From contig JAINCN010000064.1 in the NCBI GenBank assembly GCA_036574075.1, positions 1 to 43,195 on the forward strand: a stretch of 43,195 nt of DNA, read 5' to 3'. Below are positions 14,237 to 22,887 of the stretch, piece after piece. The notes below the pieces were generated by a model. It saw only the letters and a list, made by a program, of their open reading frames with translations, was not told the origin of the DNA and did not search any database. Origin of the DNA: Deltaproteobacteria bacterium (GTDB lineage: Bacteria > Desulfobacterota > Dissulfuribacteria > Dissulfuribacterales > UBA5754). A program made the position numbers and the translations under genes. Position 1 is the stretch's first letter; each line of letters starts with the position of its first letter.

Positions 14237-14647
14237 ATGACGGAAGGACATTCGAGCATAGTCGGTATCTGCTGCAATTACGCAGGTAGGGTCTCTGAAG
14301 AGGCCTTGCGCGAGGCAGGTCTTTTGCCAGAAGGGGTCAGGATCGAGAGGCTTCCGTGCACAGGCCGGCTCGAGGTGACCACCCTCCTCGATGCCTTTGA
14401 GGCAGGGGCGGAAGCGGTCTTTGTGGCCGGCTGCGAGGAGGGGACCTGCCACAATCTCTCCGGCAGCCACAGGGCGCAAAAAAAGGTGGGTGCTGCCAAG
14501 GGAATCCTTGGAGAGCTGGATATGGATCCAGGGTTGGTGGAGATGTTTTTCGTCCCCCGAGGAGAGACCGGGCCTATTGTCGCTGCGGCCCGGGAGATGG
14601 CCTCCCGGGTTGCAGGGACCAAAAAGGGGCAAAGGAGCGAAAGATGA
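14237..14647 (+). CDS. Second MvhD-like iron-sulfur protein (Cys form)
   Basis: 136 residues of the MvhD family. Visible ligands are GICCNYAG (C12, C13), RLPCTGRLE (C41) and VAGCEEGTCHN (C66, C71). C66 aligns with the Sec69 of the first MvhD in this operon, so the two are Cys/Sec paralogues. It lacks the long C-terminal tail of the first. It lies 1 nt after hdrC and overlaps metV by 4 nt (ATGA). The placement suggests it is the electron entry point to the MetV/MetF reductase. The family is sure and the partner is inferred. Confidence 0.8.
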   Translation: MTEGHSSIVGICCNYAGRVSEEALREAGLLPEGVRIERLPCTGRLEVTTLLDAFEAGAEAVFVAGCEEGTCHNLSGSHRAQKKVGAAKGILGELDMDPGLVEMFFVPRGETGPIVAAAREMASRVAGTKKGQRSER

Positions 14648-15312
14648 TCATCGCAGAACGAAAACCCCTTCGAGAGATCCTCGACATGATCTCCGGCATG
14701 GAGAAGGTCCTCATTCTCGGTTGTCGGGGATGTGTGGCAGTCTGTTCAGCGGGCGGGGACGCGGAGGTGGACGTCCTTACCTCGGCCTTGAAACTCGGAA
14801 GAAAGAGACAGGGAAGTCCGATCCATATCGATAAGGATACCCTTGTGCGTCAGTGTGACCCTGAATACCTCGAACCCATCAAGTCCATTGGGCGCAAGTA
14901 TGATGCCGTCCTTTCCATGGCATGCGGTGTGGGAGTCAACTTCATCGCCGACCGATGTCCTGGGGTGAATGTCCTACCCGCTCTCAACACGACTTTTTAC
15001 GGAGCCAATCTCTCGAGCGGGGAATGGAAGGAGATGTGTGCGGGGTGCGGGGCCTGTGTCCTCCACCTCACGGGTGGGCTCTGTCCTGTTGCGAGATGCG
15101 CCAAGAGCCTCTCTAACGGACCTTGCGGGGGGTCGGTCGGCGGTCGCTGCGAGATCGATCCCAACGTCTCCTGCGTCTGGAACCTCATTTATGACAAACT
15201 TTCCGAACTCAAGCGATCCGAGGACATGAAGGAGATCATGCCCATTCGGGACTGGAGGACCGCGGGTCATGGCGGTCCCCGCAACCGGAGGAGGGAGGAC
15301 CTGCTGCCGTGA
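14644..15312 (+). CDS. metV: MetV, partner of methylene-THF reductase
   Basis: Zinc/iron-sulfur protein of the MTHFR C-terminal-domain family that partners MetF in acetogens and passes electrons to its flavin. The 222 residues have an N-terminal LGCRGCVAVC (C27, C30, C34) and a cysteine-rich C-terminal part with MCAGCGACVLH, GGLCPVARC and NGPCGG, the usual MetV signature. It overlaps the MvhD-like gene upstream (ATGA) and the metF-acsD fusion downstream (GTGA). In Moorella-type acetogens MetV and MetF also sit with hdr and mvhD genes, so this context is expected. Confidence 0.9.
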   Translation: MIIAERKPLREILDMISGMEKVLILGCRGCVAVCSAGGDAEVDVLTSALKLGRKRQGSPIHIDKDTLVRQCDPEYLEPIKSIGRKYDAVLSMACGVGVNFIADRCPGVNVLPALNTTFYGANLSSGEWKEMCAGCGACVLHLTGGLCPVARCAKSLSNGPCGGSVGGRCEIDPNVSCVWNLIYDKLSELKRSEDMKEIMPIRDWRTAGHGGPRNRRREDLLP

Positions 15313-18300
15313 AAGCTGCAAGCAATCTGGAACACGTCCTGAGATCAGGGGCTTTCGCCGTGACAGGCGAGCTTGGCCCGCCAAAGAACGGCAACCCCGA
15401 GGTCGTGAGGGAGAAGGCCAGGATCCTCAAGGGGGTGGTGGATGCGGCCAACATCACCGATTGCCAGACGGCGATCGTGCGTATGTCGAGCCTCACCGCC
15501 GGCCTTATCGCCCTTTCAGAGGGGGTCGAGCCCGTCATGCAGATGACCTGCCGAGACCGGAACAGGATCGGCATGCAATCCGATCTCCTCGGGGCCTCTG
15601 CGCTCGGGATCAGAAACCTGCTCTGTATCACCGGAGATCACCAGAAGTTCGGGAACCACCCCCAGTCCAAGGGCGTCTTTGACATGGACTCCATCCAGAT
15701 GCTCGGGATGGTCAGGGCCATGAGAGACGAAAAGAGGTTTCAGTGCGGAGAGGCCATAAAGGAGGCGGAACCGCGTTTTTTCCTCGGGGCTGCGGCAAAC
15801 CCTTTTGCAGATCCCTTTGAGTACCGACCTGTAAGGCTCGGGAAGAAGGTCAAAGCAGGTGCGGACTTCATCCAGACCCAGATCATCTACAACGTGGAAA
15901 AGTTCGCCCGTTTCATGGAGATGGTTCGTGACCTCGGGCTTCATGAAAAGGTCTTCATCCTTGCCGGCATCACGCCCCCCAAATCCCTCGGGATGGCCCG
16001 GTACATGAAATACAATGTCTCGGGGCTCGACGTGCCGGACGAGATCCTCGCAAGGCTAAAGGATGCCAAGGATCAGCGGGAGGAAGGGATCGAGATCGCT
16101 GTGGACATCATCCGCCAGGTGCGCGAGATCCCCGGGGTCGCAGGCGTCCATATCATGGCCATCGAATGGGAACAGGCAGTCGCCGAGATCGCCTCGCGGG
16201 CCGGACTCCTCCCGAGGCCTGCTTATCAGAATGTGGTGCCCGTTCTTGTGAACAGGGCGGCTCTCGAGGAGGCCGTGGCCACGGCGAAAAAGGAGTCCGA
16301 AGACGCCCATGTCCAGGAGATCGAGCGGGTAAAGGCCGAGGCCCAGGCCTCCCGGGACCTCGTGGTTCGTGAAAGGGAGCGGGCTCAGGGCGAGATCGCC
16401 GGTCTCAAGAAGGATCTGGCCAAGGCCCTGGAGGAAGCGCGTTCCAAGGCCGAGGAACTAAGGCGTATCCGGGAAGAGCTTTCCAAAACCAGGCAGGAGT
16501 TGCAGAACAGGCCTATGACAACTGAAAGCATGCAACCATCCATCACCCCTTCACAGGGATCGGAAGGCGCTGGCGTGGCCCTCACGCCGAGGGAAAAACG
16601 GGTCCTTAGGTCCATCAGCGCCGGACTCGAGGCCCTGAGAAAGGGTCTCGGCCTCTCCGAGGACCAGTTCGCTGCCATCAGGCACTTCATCGAGGCCGAG
16701 CTCACGATCAATGCCGAGGTCTTTTCTGAGGCACGGGCCGTGCCGGCACCCATTGCAAGGCCGATGGAAGCGCCTCTTCCGGAAATGACCCCGGCCCCAG
16801 CCGAGGCTGTGGCCCCTGCCCCTCCGGAGGTCTCTCCTGAGGATCAAGAGCGCACGAAACAGGTGACACGGCTCATTGCCAAGGGGAATGTGTCTCTCCA
16901 GAAGAGGGCCGCTCGTGAGGCCATAGAGGCCTTCGAGGCCGCCCTTGCCCTGGATCCAGGGAACCAGAAGGCAACAGACGGGCTTGCGCGGGCAAAGGAA
17001 CTTCTTCCAGCAGCGCCGCAGGCCGCGCCTGCCGTAGGGGGCATGCCACCCTGTCCGCCTGAGCTTTCTTTCGAGGAGTGGCAAAGGAAATGGGTGATCC
17101 GCCTCGTGGCCAGGGGAAATGTGGCACTTCAGAAGGGAGACAGGGAGGGCGCGCGCGCCTCTTTTGAAGAGGCCCTTCGGATCGAACCCGAAAACGCCAA
17201 GGCGAAAAAGGGGCTTTCCGTTCTTGAGTCCGGCGCCCTGCCTTCTCCTCCGAGTCCTGCCCCTGAGGCGCCCCATCCAGGTCCAGCTCTTGCTGCTACG
17301 CAGGCTCCGTCACCCCTTGCTGCCCCAAAACCCGAGGCAGCCCCGTCAAGGCCCTCGGCCCCGCCCGAGCCGAAGCCGGTCCCTGCTCCAGCGCCTGCTG
17401 CCGTCCCGCTCGGTGTGGGCATACTGCCTCCGGAGACCGTTCCTCTTGCCGAAAGGGCGAGGGGGGTGGATTCCGGGCTTTATCTCGAACCTGCAGGCGC
17501 AGCCATAAGGGCCGTGACCATTGGCGATGGGCCTTCCGCCATCACCGTGGGGGGTGAATCGGCACTTCCGTTCCATCTCTTCGAAGGGGAGATGCCTTTT
17601 GCCCCACGCATCGCCTTCGAGGTCCTGGATTCACCGCCCGAGGACTGGCCCGAGGTCCTTACCCGTCACTATGCCGACGTCCTCTCCGATCCCGTTGCCT
17701 GGGCGAAAAAATGTGTGAGCGAATTCGGGGCGAAGTCGATCTGTCTTTCCCTTGTTAGCACGGATCCCAACGGCAGAAACGTGCCTGCTGCAGAGGCAGC
17801 CAAGGCTGCAAAGGCCGTGCTCGATGCCATCGAGGTCCCGGTGGTCCTCTGGGGCTGCGGAAACGCAGAAAAGGACACGGAGACCCTGCGTGAGGTCACG
17901 AGCCTCATCGGCAGCCGCAAGGTCTGCATCTCCCCGCTTACTGACGCCAATTTCCGGAATCTGGGCGCAACCGCCATGGCCTTTCAGCTTCCGGTCGTGG
18001 CCTCGACCCCCATTGACGTCAACCTCGCAAAACAGCTCAATATCCTCCTCCAGAATCTCGGCCTTCCTTTGGAGAACATCCTTATGGATCCGTCCATCGG
18101 GGCCGTGGGATACGGCCTCGAGTACACGTATTCGGTCATGGAGAGGATCCGGCTTGCGGCCCTCACTCAGCAGGACGACAAGCTTCAGGTCCCGTTCATC
18201 TGCCATATTGGTCGCGAGGTCTGGAAGACCAAGGAGTGCAAGCTCCCCAGCGACGATCTCATGGGGGACCAGGAGAAAAGGGGCGTGCTCATGGAGGCGG

Positions 18301-18401
18301 TGACCGCAGCTCTCCTCCTCCTTGCCGGAGGAGAGCTTCTCGTCATGCGGCACCCGACTGCGATCTCTCTTACAGAAACCCTCATCAAGTCTTTCATGTA
18401 A
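15309..18401 (+). CDS. metF-acsD: MetF-AcsD fusion: methylene-THF reductase joined to corrinoid protein small subunit
   Basis: One uninterrupted 1030-residue frame. Residues 1-312 are a MetF TIM barrel (VTGELGPPKNG with E21, MTCRDRNRIGMQ, LLCITGDH, IQTQIIYNVEKF), reducing methylene- to methyl-THF. Residues 318-402 are a charged coiled coil. Residues 424-472 are a small helical domain (LTPREKRVLRSISAG). Residues 509-567 and 586-642 are two TPR-like helical hairpins that resemble each other (RLIAKGNVSLQKR and RLVARGNVALQKG). Residues 643-710 are a Pro/Ala linker. Residues 710-1030 are AcsD/CdhD (ITVGGESALPFH, WGCGNAEKD, ILMDPSIGAVGYGLEYTYSVMERI). AcsD with AcsC holds the corrinoid that receives the methyl group. 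The GTG start has a very strong GGAGGAGGGAGG site and overlaps metV. No separate metF or acsD is present, so the fusion is probably functional. Confidence 0.9.
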   Translation: MKAASNLEHVLRSGAFAVTGELGPPKNGNPEVVREKARILKGVVDAANITDCQTAIVRMSSLTAGLIALSEGVEPVMQMTCRDRNRIGMQSDLLGASALGIRNLLCITGDHQKFGNHPQSKGVFDMDSIQMLGMVRAMRDEKRFQCGEAIKEAEPRFFLGAAANPFADPFEYRPVRLGKKVKAGADFIQTQIIYNVEKFARFMEMVRDLGLHEKVFILAGITPPKSLGMARYMKYNVSGLDVPDEILARLKDAKDQREEGIEIAVDIIRQVREIPGVAGVHIMAIEWEQAVAEIASRAGLLPRPAYQNVVPVLVNRAALEEAVATAKKESEDAHVQEIERVKAEAQASRDLVVRERERAQGEIAGLKKDLAKALEEARSKAEELRRIREELSKTRQELQNRPMTTESMQPSITPSQGSEGAGVALTPREKRVLRSISAGLEALRKGLGLSEDQFAAIRHFIEAELTINAEVFSEARAVPAPIARPMEAPLPEMTPAPAEAVAPAPPEVSPEDQERTKQVTRLIAKGNVSLQKRAAREAIEAFEAALALDPGNQKATDGLARAKELLPAAPQAAPAVGGMPPCPPELSFEEWQRKWVIRLVARGNVALQKGDREGARASFEEALRIEPENAKAKKGLSVLESGALPSPPSPAPEAPHPGPALAATQAPSPLAAPKPEAAPSRPSAPPEPKPVPAPAPAAVPLGVGILPPETVPLAERARGVDSGLYLEPAGAAIRAVTIGDGPSAITVGGESALPFHLFEGEMPFAPRIAFEVLDSPPEDWPEVLTRHYADVLSDPVAWAKKCVSEFGAKSICLSLVSTDPNGRNVPAAEAAKAAKAVLDAIEVPVVLWGCGNAEKDTETLREVTSLIGSRKVCISPLTDANFRNLGATAMAFQLPVVASTPIDVNLAKQLNILLQNLGLPLENILMDPSIGAVGYGLEYTYSVMERIRLAALTQQDDKLQVPFICHIGREVWKTKECKLPSDDLMGDQEKRGVLMEAVTAALLLLAGGELLVMRHPTAISLTETLIKSFM

Positions 18402-18421: not shown

Positions 18422-20629
18422 ATGTCCAAGATCATCTGTTCGGCTGCCATCCGGGGCGCTCACAAGATTGTCGACATGGCCGAGGAGAGATACCAGGAGG
18501 CCCTCAAGAAGTACGGTCCGGAACACGAGGTGGCCTTTCCGAACACAGCCTATTATCTGCCTATCATTTACAGCATTCTCGGGGCGCCGGTAAAACAGCT
18601 CGGCGACATGAAGGATATCTTTGCGGAATGCCGAAAGCTCCTTCCGCCCCTTGTGAGCGAGACGAATTGGCTTCCCTATCTCGCCCCTGCCCTTGATGCG
18701 GGTATGGCCACCTTCTTTGCCGAGGAGATGTTAGAGGCGATCCGCTATATCGAGGCCCCGGACTTTTATACCAAGACCGAGGACCCGCTTGGCGAAGACC
18801 GTTTCTGGCTTGGGGCCGCGGACGACATCATCTTCCGCAAGCGGGGCGTCGAGTTCGTGGATGGGACAGCGCCTGGTTTTGCAGCCATCCTGGGGACCCC
18901 TTCGGACCCAGCAGTGGCATCCAAGATCGCCCTCGAACTCCAGGAGAAGAACCTTTACATCTTCATGCATGACCAGACGAACGGGATCAGCATGCCCGAC
19001 CAGCTCCGCAAGGAGAAGGTCCAGATTGGCTGGTCCACGCGGCTTGTTTCCTTTGGCCCTACGTATACGTCAGCGGTCTTTGCCATCGGTTTTGCGTGTC
19101 GGGTGGCCCTTGGATTTGGCGGTGTCAAGCCTGGGGACTACAAGGGGAACCTCCTCTACAACAAGGACCGGACATTTGCATTCGTCATGGCCTTCGGGCC
19201 CGTCTCTGACGAATGGTACGCCAACGCCGCAGGGGCCATCAACTGGGGCTTTCCCACCATCTCCGACTGGGACATCCCCCAGATCCTGCCTACTGGTATC
19301 TGCACCTACGAACACGTGGTGAGCAAGGTCCCGCACGATGAGATCGTCCAGAAAGCGATCGAGGTGCGGGGGCTCAAGGTCTCGGTCACCAAGATCGACA
19401 TCCCCGTGGCCTACGGCCCTGCCTTCGAGGGGGAACGGGTCAGAAAGGACGATCTTTATCTGGAGTGCGGCGGCGGAAGGACCCTTGGTGTGGAGCTCCT
19501 CGTCTCGAAGGATCTCGATGAGGTCCAGGACGGGCTTGTCACGGTCGAAGGCCCTGAGATGACTGATGTCCAGCCCGGGGCCAAGCTCCCGCTTGCTATC
19601 CTGGCTGAGGTGGCGGGCCGTGCCATGCAGTCCGATTTCGAGCCCATTCTCGAACGCCAGTTCCATCACCTTATAAACTACGCCCAGGGGATCATGCACA
19701 TCGGCCAGAGGAACATCATGTGGCTCCGGGTCGGGAAGCAGGCCATCGAGAAGGGTTTCAAGTTCGAGCACATTGGTCGCATCCTCCACGGGAAGCTCCA
19801 CCAGGAGTTCGGGGCCATCGTGGACAAGGTCCAGGTGAAGATCTATACGAGCGAGGAAAAGGTCAAGGAGGTCATGGAGCTTGCGCGCCAGGTCTATGCT
19901 GCACGCGACGAGCGTCTTGGATCCATGACCGACGAGACAGAAGAGATCTTCTACTCTTGCACCCTCTGCCAGTCCTTTGCGCCGACTCACGTCTGTGTCA
20001 TCACCCCGGAGCGGATCGGGATGTGCGGCGCGTACAACTGGCTCGACGGCAAGGCCTCTTACGAGATCAACCCCACCGGTCCGAACCAACCCATCAAAAA
20101 AGGTGAATGCATCGACCCCAACCTCGGGCAGTGGGCCGGGGTCAACGAATTCGTGAAGAAGGCCTCTCGCGGCAAGGTGGAGAGGGTGAGCGCCTACAGC
20201 ATCATGGTGGACCCCATGACCGCGTGCGGATGTTTCGAATGCGTATCCACCATGCTTCCCACCTGTAACGGGCTCATGATCGTGAACCGCGACTACCTCG
20301 GAATGACCCCGAGCGGGATGAAGTTCACGACCCTTGCTGGCATGGTCGGAGGCGGAAACGTCACCCCGGGTTTTCTCGGGGTCTCGAAGCACTACATCTG
20401 CAGCCGCAAGTTCATGAAGGCTGAAGGTGGACTCAAGCGCGTGGTATGGATGCCCAAGATGCTCAAGGACGAGCTTCGTGACCGACTCCAGCAAAGGGCC
20501 GAGGAGGAAGGCATCCCGAATCTTTTGGATATGATTGCAGACGAGACCGTTGGGACCACTGAGGAAGAGGTACTGAAATTCCTCCAGGAGAAGGGGCATC
20601 CCGCCCTTTCCATGGAAATGGTCGTTTAG
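18422..20629 (+). CDS. acsB: Acetyl-CoA synthase (CODH/ACS beta subunit)
   Basis: Condenses CO, a methyl group from the corrinoid protein and CoA into acetyl-CoA. The 735 residues match the long bacterial form that keeps the N-terminal CODH-contacting domain. The A-cluster ligands are all present: C513, C516, C525 and C535 bind the [4Fe-4S] cube, and C602-G-C604 binds the distal nickel. Each is shifted by +7 relative to the Moorella numbering. The frame is open upstream, but the ATG at 18422 is chosen for its ACGGAGGAACGATA ribosome site 20 nt after the fusion gene. acsC follows 13 nt later. Confidence 0.97.
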   Translation: MSKIICSAAIRGAHKIVDMAEERYQEALKKYGPEHEVAFPNTAYYLPIIYSILGAPVKQLGDMKDIFAECRKLLPPLVSETNWLPYLAPALDAGMATFFAEEMLEAIRYIEAPDFYTKTEDPLGEDRFWLGAADDIIFRKRGVEFVDGTAPGFAAILGTPSDPAVASKIALELQEKNLYIFMHDQTNGISMPDQLRKEKVQIGWSTRLVSFGPTYTSAVFAIGFACRVALGFGGVKPGDYKGNLLYNKDRTFAFVMAFGPVSDEWYANAAGAINWGFPTISDWDIPQILPTGICTYEHVVSKVPHDEIVQKAIEVRGLKVSVTKIDIPVAYGPAFEGERVRKDDLYLECGGGRTLGVELLVSKDLDEVQDGLVTVEGPEMTDVQPGAKLPLAILAEVAGRAMQSDFEPILERQFHHLINYAQGIMHIGQRNIMWLRVGKQAIEKGFKFEHIGRILHGKLHQEFGAIVDKVQVKIYTSEEKVKEVMELARQVYAARDERLGSMTDETEEIFYSCTLCQSFAPTHVCVITPERIGMCGAYNWLDGKASYEINPTGPNQPIKKGECIDPNLGQWAGVNEFVKKASRGKVERVSAYSIMVDPMTACGCFECVSTMLPTCNGLMIVNRDYLGMTPSGMKFTTLAGMVGGGNVTPGFLGVSKHYICSRKFMKAEGGLKRVVWMPKMLKDELRDRLQQRAEEEGIPNLLDMIADETVGTTEEEVLKFLQEKGHPALSMEMVV

Positions 20630-20642
20630 GAGGGGAGACGAC

Positions 20643-21995
20643 ATGGCGCTCACAGGTATACAGATCCTAAAGATGCTCCCCAAGAAAAACTGTGGGGAAT
20701 GCGGTGTGCCCACGTGTCTCGCCTTTGCCATGAAGGTAGCGGCCGGACAGGCTGACATCGGGTCGTGTCCTTATGTATCCGAAGAGGTGAAAGAAAAGGT
20801 GGGAGAGGCCTCGGCCCCGCCCATCCGGACCGTCAGGATCGGGGGTGGGGATCATCCATTCGAGATGGGTGGAGAGACCTGCCTCTACCGCCACGAGAAA
20901 CGTTTCGAGCATCCGACTGGGATCGGGGTCCTCGTCCGGACTGATATGTCCGAGGACGAGATCGCAGGACGCCTTTCCCGGTTTACCTCTCTCCGCTACG
21001 AGCGCGTCGGCCTCACACTCAAGGCGGATATCATAGCCGTCAAGGACACGGGCGGCGATGCAGGGGCCTTTGCCACGCTTGTCACCCGTGTGCGGAGCGG
21101 GTGTCCGGATGCGGCCCTGGTCCTCATGAGTGAACGTCCCGACTGCCTTTCCGCCGGGCTGAAGGCGTGCGGGGACCACAAGCCGCTCCTCTACGCGGCG
21201 ACAGCCGGGAATGCGGAGGCCATGGCCGCGCTCGCCAAGGAGACCGGCTGCCCCTTGGCGGTAAAGGGAAACACGCTCGGGGATACTGCCGCCCTTTCCG
21301 AACGTCTCCAGAAGGAGGGGCTCAAGGACCTGGTCCTCGATTCGGGCTCCCGGACGCTACGGGGCTCCTTTGAGGACCAGATCGTCTTTCGGCGGGCATC
21401 CACCAGGCACAAATACAAGCCGTTTGGCTTTCCGAGCATAACGTTTCCTTGTGAGATGACGGACGACCCCCTCCTCGAGAGTCTCATCGCATCGGTCCAT
21501 ATAGCCAAGTACGCAGGCGCGGTGATCCTCTCTGATCTTCAGGGTGATACCCTTTTCCCGATCCTTCTCGAACGGCTCAACCTCTTTACCGATCCCCAGC
21601 GTCCCATGGTGGTCCAGGAGGACATCTATCCTATCAATGGCCCTGGGGAGGATTCTCCTGTACTTATCACCTGCAACTTTTCCCTCACGTATTTCATCGT
21701 CTCAGGCGAGGTGGAGGGGAGCAAGGTCCCGTCCTGGCTCCTCATCAAGAACACCGAAGGGCTATCGGTCCTGACGGCATGGGCAGCTGGTAAGTTCAGC
21801 GCGGATCTCATCGCTGCCTTTGTCAAGAAGTGCGGGATCGAGAACAAGGTCCGCCACAGAAATCTCATCATCCCAGGTTATCTCGCCTCCATCAAAGGGG
21901 AGCTTGAGGAGGAACTGTCGGGCTGGAACATCCAGATAGGACCCCGCGAGGCGAGTCATATCCCAGCGTATCTCAGGGAATGGAGGCCTGCATAA
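20643..21995 (+). CDS. acsC: Corrinoid iron-sulfur protein, large subunit
   Basis: Large (gamma) subunit of the corrinoid iron-sulfur protein that carries the methyl group from methyl-THF to acetyl-CoA synthase. The 450 residues begin with the [4Fe-4S] motif C17-x2-C20-x4-C25-x16-C42 (NCGECGVPTC, then GSCPYV), which reductively reactivates the cobalt. A TIM-barrel middle and a C-terminal corrinoid-binding region follow (VLITCNFSLTYFIVSGEVEGSKVPSWLL is in that part). Its partner AcsD is the C-terminal third of the fusion protein upstream. The ribosome site is AGGAGGGGAGACGAC. Confidence 0.95.
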   Translation: MALTGIQILKMLPKKNCGECGVPTCLAFAMKVAAGQADIGSCPYVSEEVKEKVGEASAPPIRTVRIGGGDHPFEMGGETCLYRHEKRFEHPTGIGVLVRTDMSEDEIAGRLSRFTSLRYERVGLTLKADIIAVKDTGGDAGAFATLVTRVRSGCPDAALVLMSERPDCLSAGLKACGDHKPLLYAATAGNAEAMAALAKETGCPLAVKGNTLGDTAALSERLQKEGLKDLVLDSGSRTLRGSFEDQIVFRRASTRHKYKPFGFPSITFPCEMTDDPLLESLIASVHIAKYAGAVILSDLQGDTLFPILLERLNLFTDPQRPMVVQEDIYPINGPGEDSPVLITCNFSLTYFIVSGEVEGSKVPSWLLIKNTEGLSVLTAWAAGKFSADLIAAFVKKCGIENKVRHRNLIIPGYLASIKGELEEELSGWNIQIGPREASHIPAYLREWRPA

Positions 21996-21996
21996 G

Positions 21997-22887
21997 ATGT
22001 ACGTCCACTGCATTGCAGAAAGCATAAATATCATGGGGGCCAGGACCGGGAAGGCCATGAAGGAGCGCGACCCCGGCCCGATCCAGCTCATGGCCAACGA
22101 GGAGGTCGCAAACGGAGCGGATTTTCTCGATCTCAACATCGGACCTGCCCGCAAGGACGGCCCAGATCTAATGCCGTGGATCGTCAGGCAGGTGGAGGAG
22201 GTGACCGACTGCCCTCTTTCCCTCGATACGACCAATGCCGACGCCCTCATAGCTGGGATCAGGGCCGCCGCCCACCCGAGCAGGCACATCATGAATTCTA
22301 TCTCCCTTCAGCCCGAGCGGATGAAGAAGCTGATCCCTGTGGCGGCAGAGGCCGGCTGTTACGTCGTGGGGCTCCTCTGGGGGGTAGAAGGGATGCCGAG
22401 GGACTCCAACGAGCGGGCTGCCATGACGGTGGATCTGGCCATGGCCATGAATGAGGCGGGGATTCCGAATGAAAGGATCCTCTTCGATCCCATCGCCACC
22501 CCCATCACCCTCGGAGCGGATCAGGTCCTGAGTGGCATTCAGTATCTCGCCATGCTTCAGGACATCGCGCCCGGGGCCAAATCCACGGTCGGGCTTTCGA
22601 ACGTCTCGAACGGGGTTGCGGCGGAAAAGCGTCATTACCTCAACCGGGCCTATCTTGCCATGCTCATGAAATACGGGATCTGGTCCGCCATCGTGGATGC
22701 GTACGACGAGGAGCTCTTGAGCCTTGCCCATGGAGAGAGGCCCGAACTCTTGAAGGTGGTACACGATATCATGGACGGAAACGAGCCCAATCCCTCTGAC
22801 CTGACGCCCAAGGAACTCGAATACTACAAGACGACCCGGGTTCTCATGGGGAAGACCATCTTCTCCGAGGCCTGGCTCGAGCTGTAA
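21997..22887 (+). CDS. acsE: Methyl-THF:corrinoid iron-sulfur protein methyltransferase
   Basis: Pterin-binding TIM-barrel enzyme that transfers the methyl group from methyl-THF to the cobalt of AcsC/AcsD. The 296 residues are of the usual AcsE size. It shows ESINIMGA near the start, the pterin-site block NGADFLDLNIGPARKDG, PLSLDTTNADAL, MNSISLQPERM and STVGLSNVSNGV. The N-terminus MYVHCIAESIN differs from the commoner LIIGERIN form. It starts 1 nt after the acsC stop, with GGAGG upstream. It acts exactly between the two activities of the MetF-AcsD fusion. Confidence 0.92.
   Translation: MYVHCIAESINIMGARTGKAMKERDPGPIQLMANEEVANGADFLDLNIGPARKDGPDLMPWIVRQVEEVTDCPLSLDTTNADALIAGIRAAAHPSRHIMNSISLQPERMKKLIPVAAEAGCYVVGLLWGVEGMPRDSNERAAMTVDLAMAMNEAGIPNERILFDPIATPITLGADQVLSGIQYLAMLQDIAPGAKSTVGLSNVSNGVAAEKRHYLNRAYLAMLMKYGIWSAIVDAYDEELLSLAHGERPELLKVVHDIMDGNEPNPSDLTPKELEYYKTTRVLMGKTIFSEAWLEL

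Follow-up and report, generated by a model that had tools for sequence, protein, structure and literature searches.

In the 43,195-nucleotide stretch analysed here (the window), the methylenetetrahydrofolate reductase MetF and the corrinoid protein AcsD form, as read from sequence and structure prediction, a single chain in which four conserved helical beads lie on variable disordered strings between the two enzymes. On balance we lean towards reading this linker of about 420 residues, all within the one frame, as a tether carrying assembly modules for the methyl-branch enzymes. The window is a Wood-Ljungdahl gene cluster (Table 1), with Fhs, FolD, CODH, HdrA-like, MvhD-like, four-cluster ferredoxin and MetV genes upstream, and AcsB, AcsC, AcsE (the enzymes that AcsD works with) and a formate-dehydrogenase-like set after the fused gene. 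MetF makes methyl-THF, AcsE moves the methyl group to the corrinoid protein AcsC/AcsD, and AcsC/AcsD delivers it to AcsB; successive pathway steps would be placed together because the tether joins MetF to AcsD. The GTG start of the fused gene is found in all 27 order sequences readable at that position, and an assembly artefact was ruled out as the source of the fusion, since it is present in a sister genome and across the order. A promoter scan gave no signal above chance.

The fusion itself is already in print as a term: a 2016 genome paper on Desulfurivibrio alkaliphilus AHT2 names an MTHFR/AcsD fusion in its abbreviation list (PMC5016858). The AHT2 protein joins the same two enzymes in the same order, and a Desulfurivibrio MAG (L081) falls inside the fusion clade described below; by kinship with L081 the AHT2 linker would differ from that of the window in being of the Desulfobulbales type without TPR units. 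The main text of a study of the pathway's evolution in the phylum (PMC12827605) does not contain the words fusion or fused, and the open-access literature, from which subscription papers are mostly missing, yielded no discussion of the linker or of an internal start of the fusion.

Table 1. The fused gene, its linker and its neighbours (positions in the window; residues of the fused protein)
Feature	Position	Strand	Residues	Evidence and remarks
metV-like gene immediately upstream, its end overlapping the fused gene	14644..15312	+		PF12225; conserved order HdrA-MvhD-Fer4-MetV
MetF-linker-AcsD fused gene	15309..18401	+		Single open frame, 1030 aa; GTG start overlaps the end of metV
MetF (methylenetetrahydrofolate reductase) domain	15330..16205	+	8-299	Pfam PF02219 (MTHFR), 136 bits
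Charged amphipathic helix, coiled-coil-like	16254..16505	+	316-399 (84 residues)	AlphaFold2 helix; identity 0.48; periodicity
Variable disordered gap	16506..16586	+	400-426	Identity 0.18; residue 425 is CTC, relatives' internal start not kept
Two-helix hairpin, conserved	16587..16718	+	427-470	AlphaFold2; identity 0.59; common to Desulfobulbales-type fusions
TPR unit 1 and capping helix	16836..17000	+	510-564	AlphaFold2; TPR_2 alone 22.5 bits; identity 0.55
PPCP...EEW motif, running into TPR unit 2	17040..17081	+	578-591	Identity 0.61
TPR unit 2 and capping helix	17070..17231	+	588-641	AlphaFold2; TPR_2 alone 28.7 bits; identity 0.58
Pro/Ala-rich disordered tether	17232..17444	+	642-712	AlphaFold2 pLDDT<50 at 643-699; identity 0.33; length 66-99 residues
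AcsD (CFeSP small subunit) domain	17514..18398	+		PF03599 (CdhD) at residues 736-965, 136 bits; NCBIfam delta subunit
AcsB, AcsC, AcsE, directly downstream	18422..22887	+		Pfam; conserved gene order

AlphaFold2 models of the isolated linker (23 sequences, mean pLDDT 75.8) and of the whole fused protein (28 sequences, mean pLDDT 76.5) agree on the linker's helices and gaps. Helices are predicted at residues 316-399, 427-447 and 451-470, 510-564 (as 510-531, 535-548 and 553-564) and 588-641 (as 588-608, 612-625 and 630-641), confident within the beads and separated by low-confidence stretches, the gaps lying mostly below a pLDDT of 50. The prediction accordingly describes the linker as a string of beads, namely an 84-residue amphipathic helix, a hairpin of two helices and two single-TPR units, with disordered Pro/Ala-rich gaps between them. 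A preliminary description of this DNA had argued that the linker is no plain spacer, and it was right in this respect: the linker holds conserved folded modules of known interaction types, the helical piece beginning LTPREKRV and the two GNV units are present in it, and the Pro/Ala-rich stretches that separate the units are disordered in the prediction. The region is neither fully disordered nor devoid of repeat similarity, as helices are predicted and the two units resemble each other. The charged coiled coil of that description survives as a charged amphipathic helix, hydrophobic at 16 of 24 a/d positions in the best register versus 15 of 60 positions elsewhere, but a coiled coil is likely rather than proven because the mean period across the order peaks at 3.6, not 3.5.

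Constraint within the order follows the same divisions. Among 29 distinct order linkers (one of them, L030, a truncated frame), mean pairwise identity is 0.85 for MetF and 0.76 for AcsD, from 0.48 in the long helix to 0.61 in PPCP-EEW for the beads (Table 1), and 0.18, 0.22, 0.25 and 0.33 for the gaps. The beads are near-constant in length (84-88 residues for the long helix) and the gaps vary. PPCP occurs in 25 of the 29 order linkers and in none of 50 other linkers, and PPCP-EEW and the widely spaced TPR units are both limited to the window's order.

The TPR-type duplication noticed in the preliminary description is genuine. TPR_2 (PF07719) scores 39.1 bits for the whole protein, above the Pfam gathering cut-off of 27, and when the units are scored singly unit 2 lies above this cut-off and unit 1 below it (Table 1). 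In the AlphaFold2 models both units have the two antiparallel helices per approximately 34 residues that define a TPR. The units align to each other with a local score of 99 over 49 ungapped residues, versus a mean of 23.9 (sd 4.5, maximum 47) in 2000 shuffles, and a unit-2 profile searched against the whole genome at E<=0.01 matches only unit 2 itself and unit 1 (60 bits), despite 21 TPR_2 matches in that genome; they therefore look like an internal duplication and each other's closest kin in the genome. The three or more tandem repeats that form a groove were not found: each unit is a lone repeat, the second some 78 residues on from the first beyond a disordered stretch, and for this reason no continuous superhelical groove is expected. 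The best Foldseek matches for the linker in the PDB are TPR proteins (E 1.6e-4), designed CTPR foremost, with poor TM-scores and rmsd, as superposing two spaced units on a contiguous array would be expected to give; for the TPR part of the linker, Foldseek and phmmer matched generic TPRs only. Each unit shares with TPR proteins the helix A/helix B motif and a capping helix, but differs in being a single repeat outside any tandem array, with PPCP-EEW between the two. A carboxylate-clamp reading was dropped after comparison with the clamp pattern, of which the Asn is kept and the first Lys is not. The lone repeats without a continuous groove, together with the sub-threshold score of unit 1 and the imperfect heptad period of the long helix, weigh against reading the linker as an assembly tether.

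The first search covered 60 relatives, with the window's genome reported besides. By reading of the match rows, the fusion is present in one open frame in 34 of 46 order genomes (the window's included), as pieces cut by contig ends only in 9, and without such a match in 3 (G014, G028 and G044). One order genome that also carries the fusion has a second AcsD (G002:C81:608-1504, 54% identity, in a 516-aa frame), which may be a paralogue, a transfer or contamination. In a phylum sample of 247 genomes, 9 of them from the window's order including the window's own, AcsD was found at E<=1e-30 in 161, and 20 of those have a MetF-fused frame; the 11 such frames outside the window's order were read. A scan of genome contigs, in which 80 of 584 loci were kept, found the fusion also in Desulfobulbaceae, Desulfocapsaceae, Desulfurivibrio, the cable bacterium Electronema (L109), Thermosulfurimonas (L086) and Caldimicrobium (L108).

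Linker length is 393-466 aa in the window's order, mostly 240-310 aa in the Desulfobulbales types (358 in L121) and 105-276 aa in Thermodesulfobacteria, and their composition varies by clade (Ala/Lys-rich, Pro/Glu-rich or TPR-bearing). This 105-466 aa range among the fused genes and the clade-specific compositions would suit a linker that is a flexible spacer only, its beads being helix-prone filler without partners and selection acting on length and solubility. We consider such a spacer unlikely, as the beads of the order keep their sequence and length while the gaps drift, and the hairpin before AcsD is a feature of the fusion family that the window shares, with a profile-profile probability of 98.8 between the order's hairpin and that of the Desulfobulbales type. 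Pfam TPRs were detected in 9 of 23 linkers scanned (by sequence, 8 of the window's order and L088), and are absent from all 11 linkers of the Desulfobulbales type in that scan and from 3 of its 4 from Thermodesulfobacteria. Because TPR units are missing in these relatives and the smallest linkers comprise only 105-114 aa, the fusion does not need a TPR scaffold, and its persistence without TPR units counts against the tether reading that we prefer. The scaffold proposed in the preliminary description is partly supported, lone TPR repeats and TPR-free fusions both speaking against one of the classical kind. Three linkers of one Thermodesulfobacteria family (L088, with L126 and L128 likened to it by eye) bear at the same place a different, contiguous TPR-like pair without PPCP, possibly an independent gain.

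To trace the origin of the fusion, an AcsD tree of 108 rows was inferred by quick search, leaving out duplicates (the loci up to L032, and L113), identical domains and any match that spans less than about 250 residues. All 76 fused rows fall in one clade (SH-aLRT 99), so that multiple origins are not required, and the fusion appears to have arisen once, from adjacent metF and acsD genes. Just outside this clade, L090 and L094 have the same order, HdrA-MvhD-Fer4-MetV-metF-acsD-AcsB, with metF and acsD separate, which explains the fused arrangement by fusion of neighbouring genes. We read the fusion as ancient, having arisen where metF and acsD adjoined. Five rows inside the clade were labelled as AcsD alone. 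Three of these are not unfused genes: the L116 locus is truncated upstream, a fused frame of 1099 aa being present in the same genome (G016); L058 begins at the edge of its contig; and the L048 linker is interrupted by a run of N. The true departures are L103 and L133. In the former (L103:2759-3784, Desulfobulbaceae) AcsD stands alone beside folD with no MetF beside it, a real loss of MetF and linker within the fusion clade which also counts against the tether reading. In the latter (genome G143) metF and acsD are two genes separated by TAA and a ribosome-binding site, GGGGGA, and the unfused AcsD starts MQNEKELLKILIDILSDLKSSL, which resembles the hairpin of its fused kin.

Desulfobulbales-type genes carry ...AGEHEMNEKER... 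before the hairpin, with the DNA GCA GGA GAR CAT GAR ATG, and a conserved internal Shine-Dalgarno (SD)/ATG was seen at loci L041-L085 (without L058), L096, L097, L109 and L171-L240. Our first pattern required the Met, whose presence is thus by construction, and left the Gly codon free; it matched 46 of 47 Desulfobulbales-type loci, the exception (L059, which to all appearances recurs as L235 among the loci read later) differing after the Met. The Gly codon before the internal ATG is GGA in 46 of 46 cases versus 105 of the 513 Gly-Glu pairs that these frames contain (this site included). Among the 41 frames of at least 700 aa it is GGA in every one, no single codon accounts for more than 66% of any of the other 39 invariant Gly columns, and out of 193 invariant degenerate columns only this one reaches 95%. 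An SD pairing energy of -7 or better was obtained for all 46 internal ATGs versus 13.8% of 1207 other in-frame ATGs. Per-sequence synonymous codon resampling gave P<0.05 in only 3 of 46, because a Gly-Glu peptide is SD-like anyway, and the case for the internal start rests on the fixed GGA codon. Searched against 192 genomes of the Desulfobulbales-type class, the hairpin profile was present in 119, spanning 43 of 62 genera. From this hairpin-carrying set 70 loci were read, 61 of which (38 new and 23 repeats of the first set) could be placed by a pattern that does not require Met, and ATG and GGA were found in all 61; of the remaining nine, eight have GGA, GAR and ATG by a pattern requiring ATG, and one ends at a contig edge. 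An ATG with a strong SD also occupies this place in five Thermodesulfobacteria loci (L098, L100, L108, L127 and L137) and in one lineage of the window's order (L036/L029), which keeps GGGGAGGCGAAATG before the hairpin. Since the internal SD/ATG lies just before the hairpin and its Gly codon is GGA in every readable case, the Desulfobulbales-type gene probably makes both MetF-AcsD and a free hairpin-AcsD.

These observations bear on whose module the hairpin is. The hairpin and the part that follows it could be AcsD's own, serving CFeSP dimerisation or stability and having nothing to do with its link to MetF, with only the long helix and the strings specific to the fusion; we regard this as possible, if somewhat doubtful. 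Agreeing with it are G143, in which AcsD is unfused, has a ribosome-binding site to itself and still bears a hairpin, and the internal start exactly before the hairpin in Desulfobulbales-type genes, from which a free hairpin-AcsD is probably made. Against it, the stand-alone AcsDs read outside the fusion clade (L090, L094, L140, L143-L151 and L156) have no hairpin, and the Thermodesulfobacteria hairpins, G143's included, match the order's only weakly in profile comparison (probability 58) and that of the Desulfobulbales type hardly at all (5). A stand-alone AcsD with such a helical region, which the preliminary description suggested looking for, was found in one genome, G143, by the hairpin at its start, though the profile link of that hairpin type to the window's is weak. 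As a separate observation, the Desulfobulbales-type hairpin (alignment A4) shows in 4 of 11 members a sub-threshold likeness to the TAL-effector repeat profile (best match E 0.003, 18.4 bits versus a 28-bit cut-off); PDB E-values for this likeness are inflated because repeats are summed, and convergence is likely.

An internal start was also sought in the window and was not found. At residue 425, the corresponding place, the codon is CTC and there is no SD. The best SD-like sites ahead of other start-like codons in frame are too far upstream (403 ATG, 596 GTG) or unconserved. Across 28 order sequences no linker column has fixed codons; the one column fixed in all of them is the GTG at which the gene starts, and it makes a useful positive control. 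With CTC without SD at this position and no fixed linker codons, the device is a feature of the relatives and not of the window, and we read the window's order as having lost the internal start apart from the L036/L029 lineage. That lineage, and the relatives which appear to do so, are what speaks for free AcsD arising from an internal start in the window's linker as well, a notion that the findings above render highly improbable.

Although tentative, and in our estimate a little short of an even chance, it is attractive to think of the fused gene as a two-product device, whereby the Desulfobulbales types (cable bacteria included) would set the ratio of tethered to free corrinoid protein, and most of the window's order would have lost the start and gained the TPR pair, so that every AcsD is tied to MetF and the linker becomes an obligate assembly platform for the methyl branch. 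The presence of the internal start in all readable genes of the Desulfobulbales type predicts a tethered/free AcsD ratio that is set by a single gene. The SctQ/SpaO sorting-platform proteins and ClpB offer a parallel in which one gene yields a long form and a C-terminal short form, and the SD-ATG of the relatives fits this; the difference is that in the relatives two metabolic enzymes would be separated, that the evidence is solely evolutionary, and that the window is without the start.

Under the tether reading, the long helix next to MetF and the hairpin next to AcsD would self-associate, and the two TPR units may dock a partner from the same operon. MetF and the corrinoid iron-sulfur protein would thereby be held in one assembly at raised local concentration, with the disordered strings leaving AcsD free to reach AcsE and AcsB. 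In favour of this reading are the constancy of the beads against the drifting gaps, the confidently predicted helices, the single well-supported fusion clade, the spread of the fusion through the order, the neighbouring but separate metF and acsD of L090 and L094, the hairpin on the unfused AcsD of G143 and the independent tethering of AcsD to CODH described below. The hairpin was probably AcsD's first, the TPR pair being added in the window's order. The fusion bears on the question of whether Wood-Ljungdahl enzymes act as an assembly in bacteria: in a large group of sulfur bacteria MetF and the corrinoid protein have become one chain through evolution, and in other clades AcsD has been tied to CODH. 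The linker beads are small defined pieces that can be tested for partners.

The tie to CODH was found in two genomes of other clades, where AcsD is fused C-terminally to CODH (AcsA; L152:1816-5184 and L153:1-2874). Like the window's protein, these tie AcsD to another enzyme of the Wood-Ljungdahl pathway by way of a Pro/Ala-rich string that contains a short helix-like segment, but the fusion is C-terminal, the clades are others, and no common linker sequence is evident by eye. In addition, at 11 loci read (L140, L143-L151 and L156) AcsD has a charged C-terminal extension of about 200 aa, mostly Ala/Lys/Glu-rich and helix-like, and some 36 AcsD frames of 450-560 aa in the 247-genome sample, those 11 included, may be alike. 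This independent tethering to CODH, together with the C-terminal extensions, suggests that AcsD repeatedly becomes the anchor.
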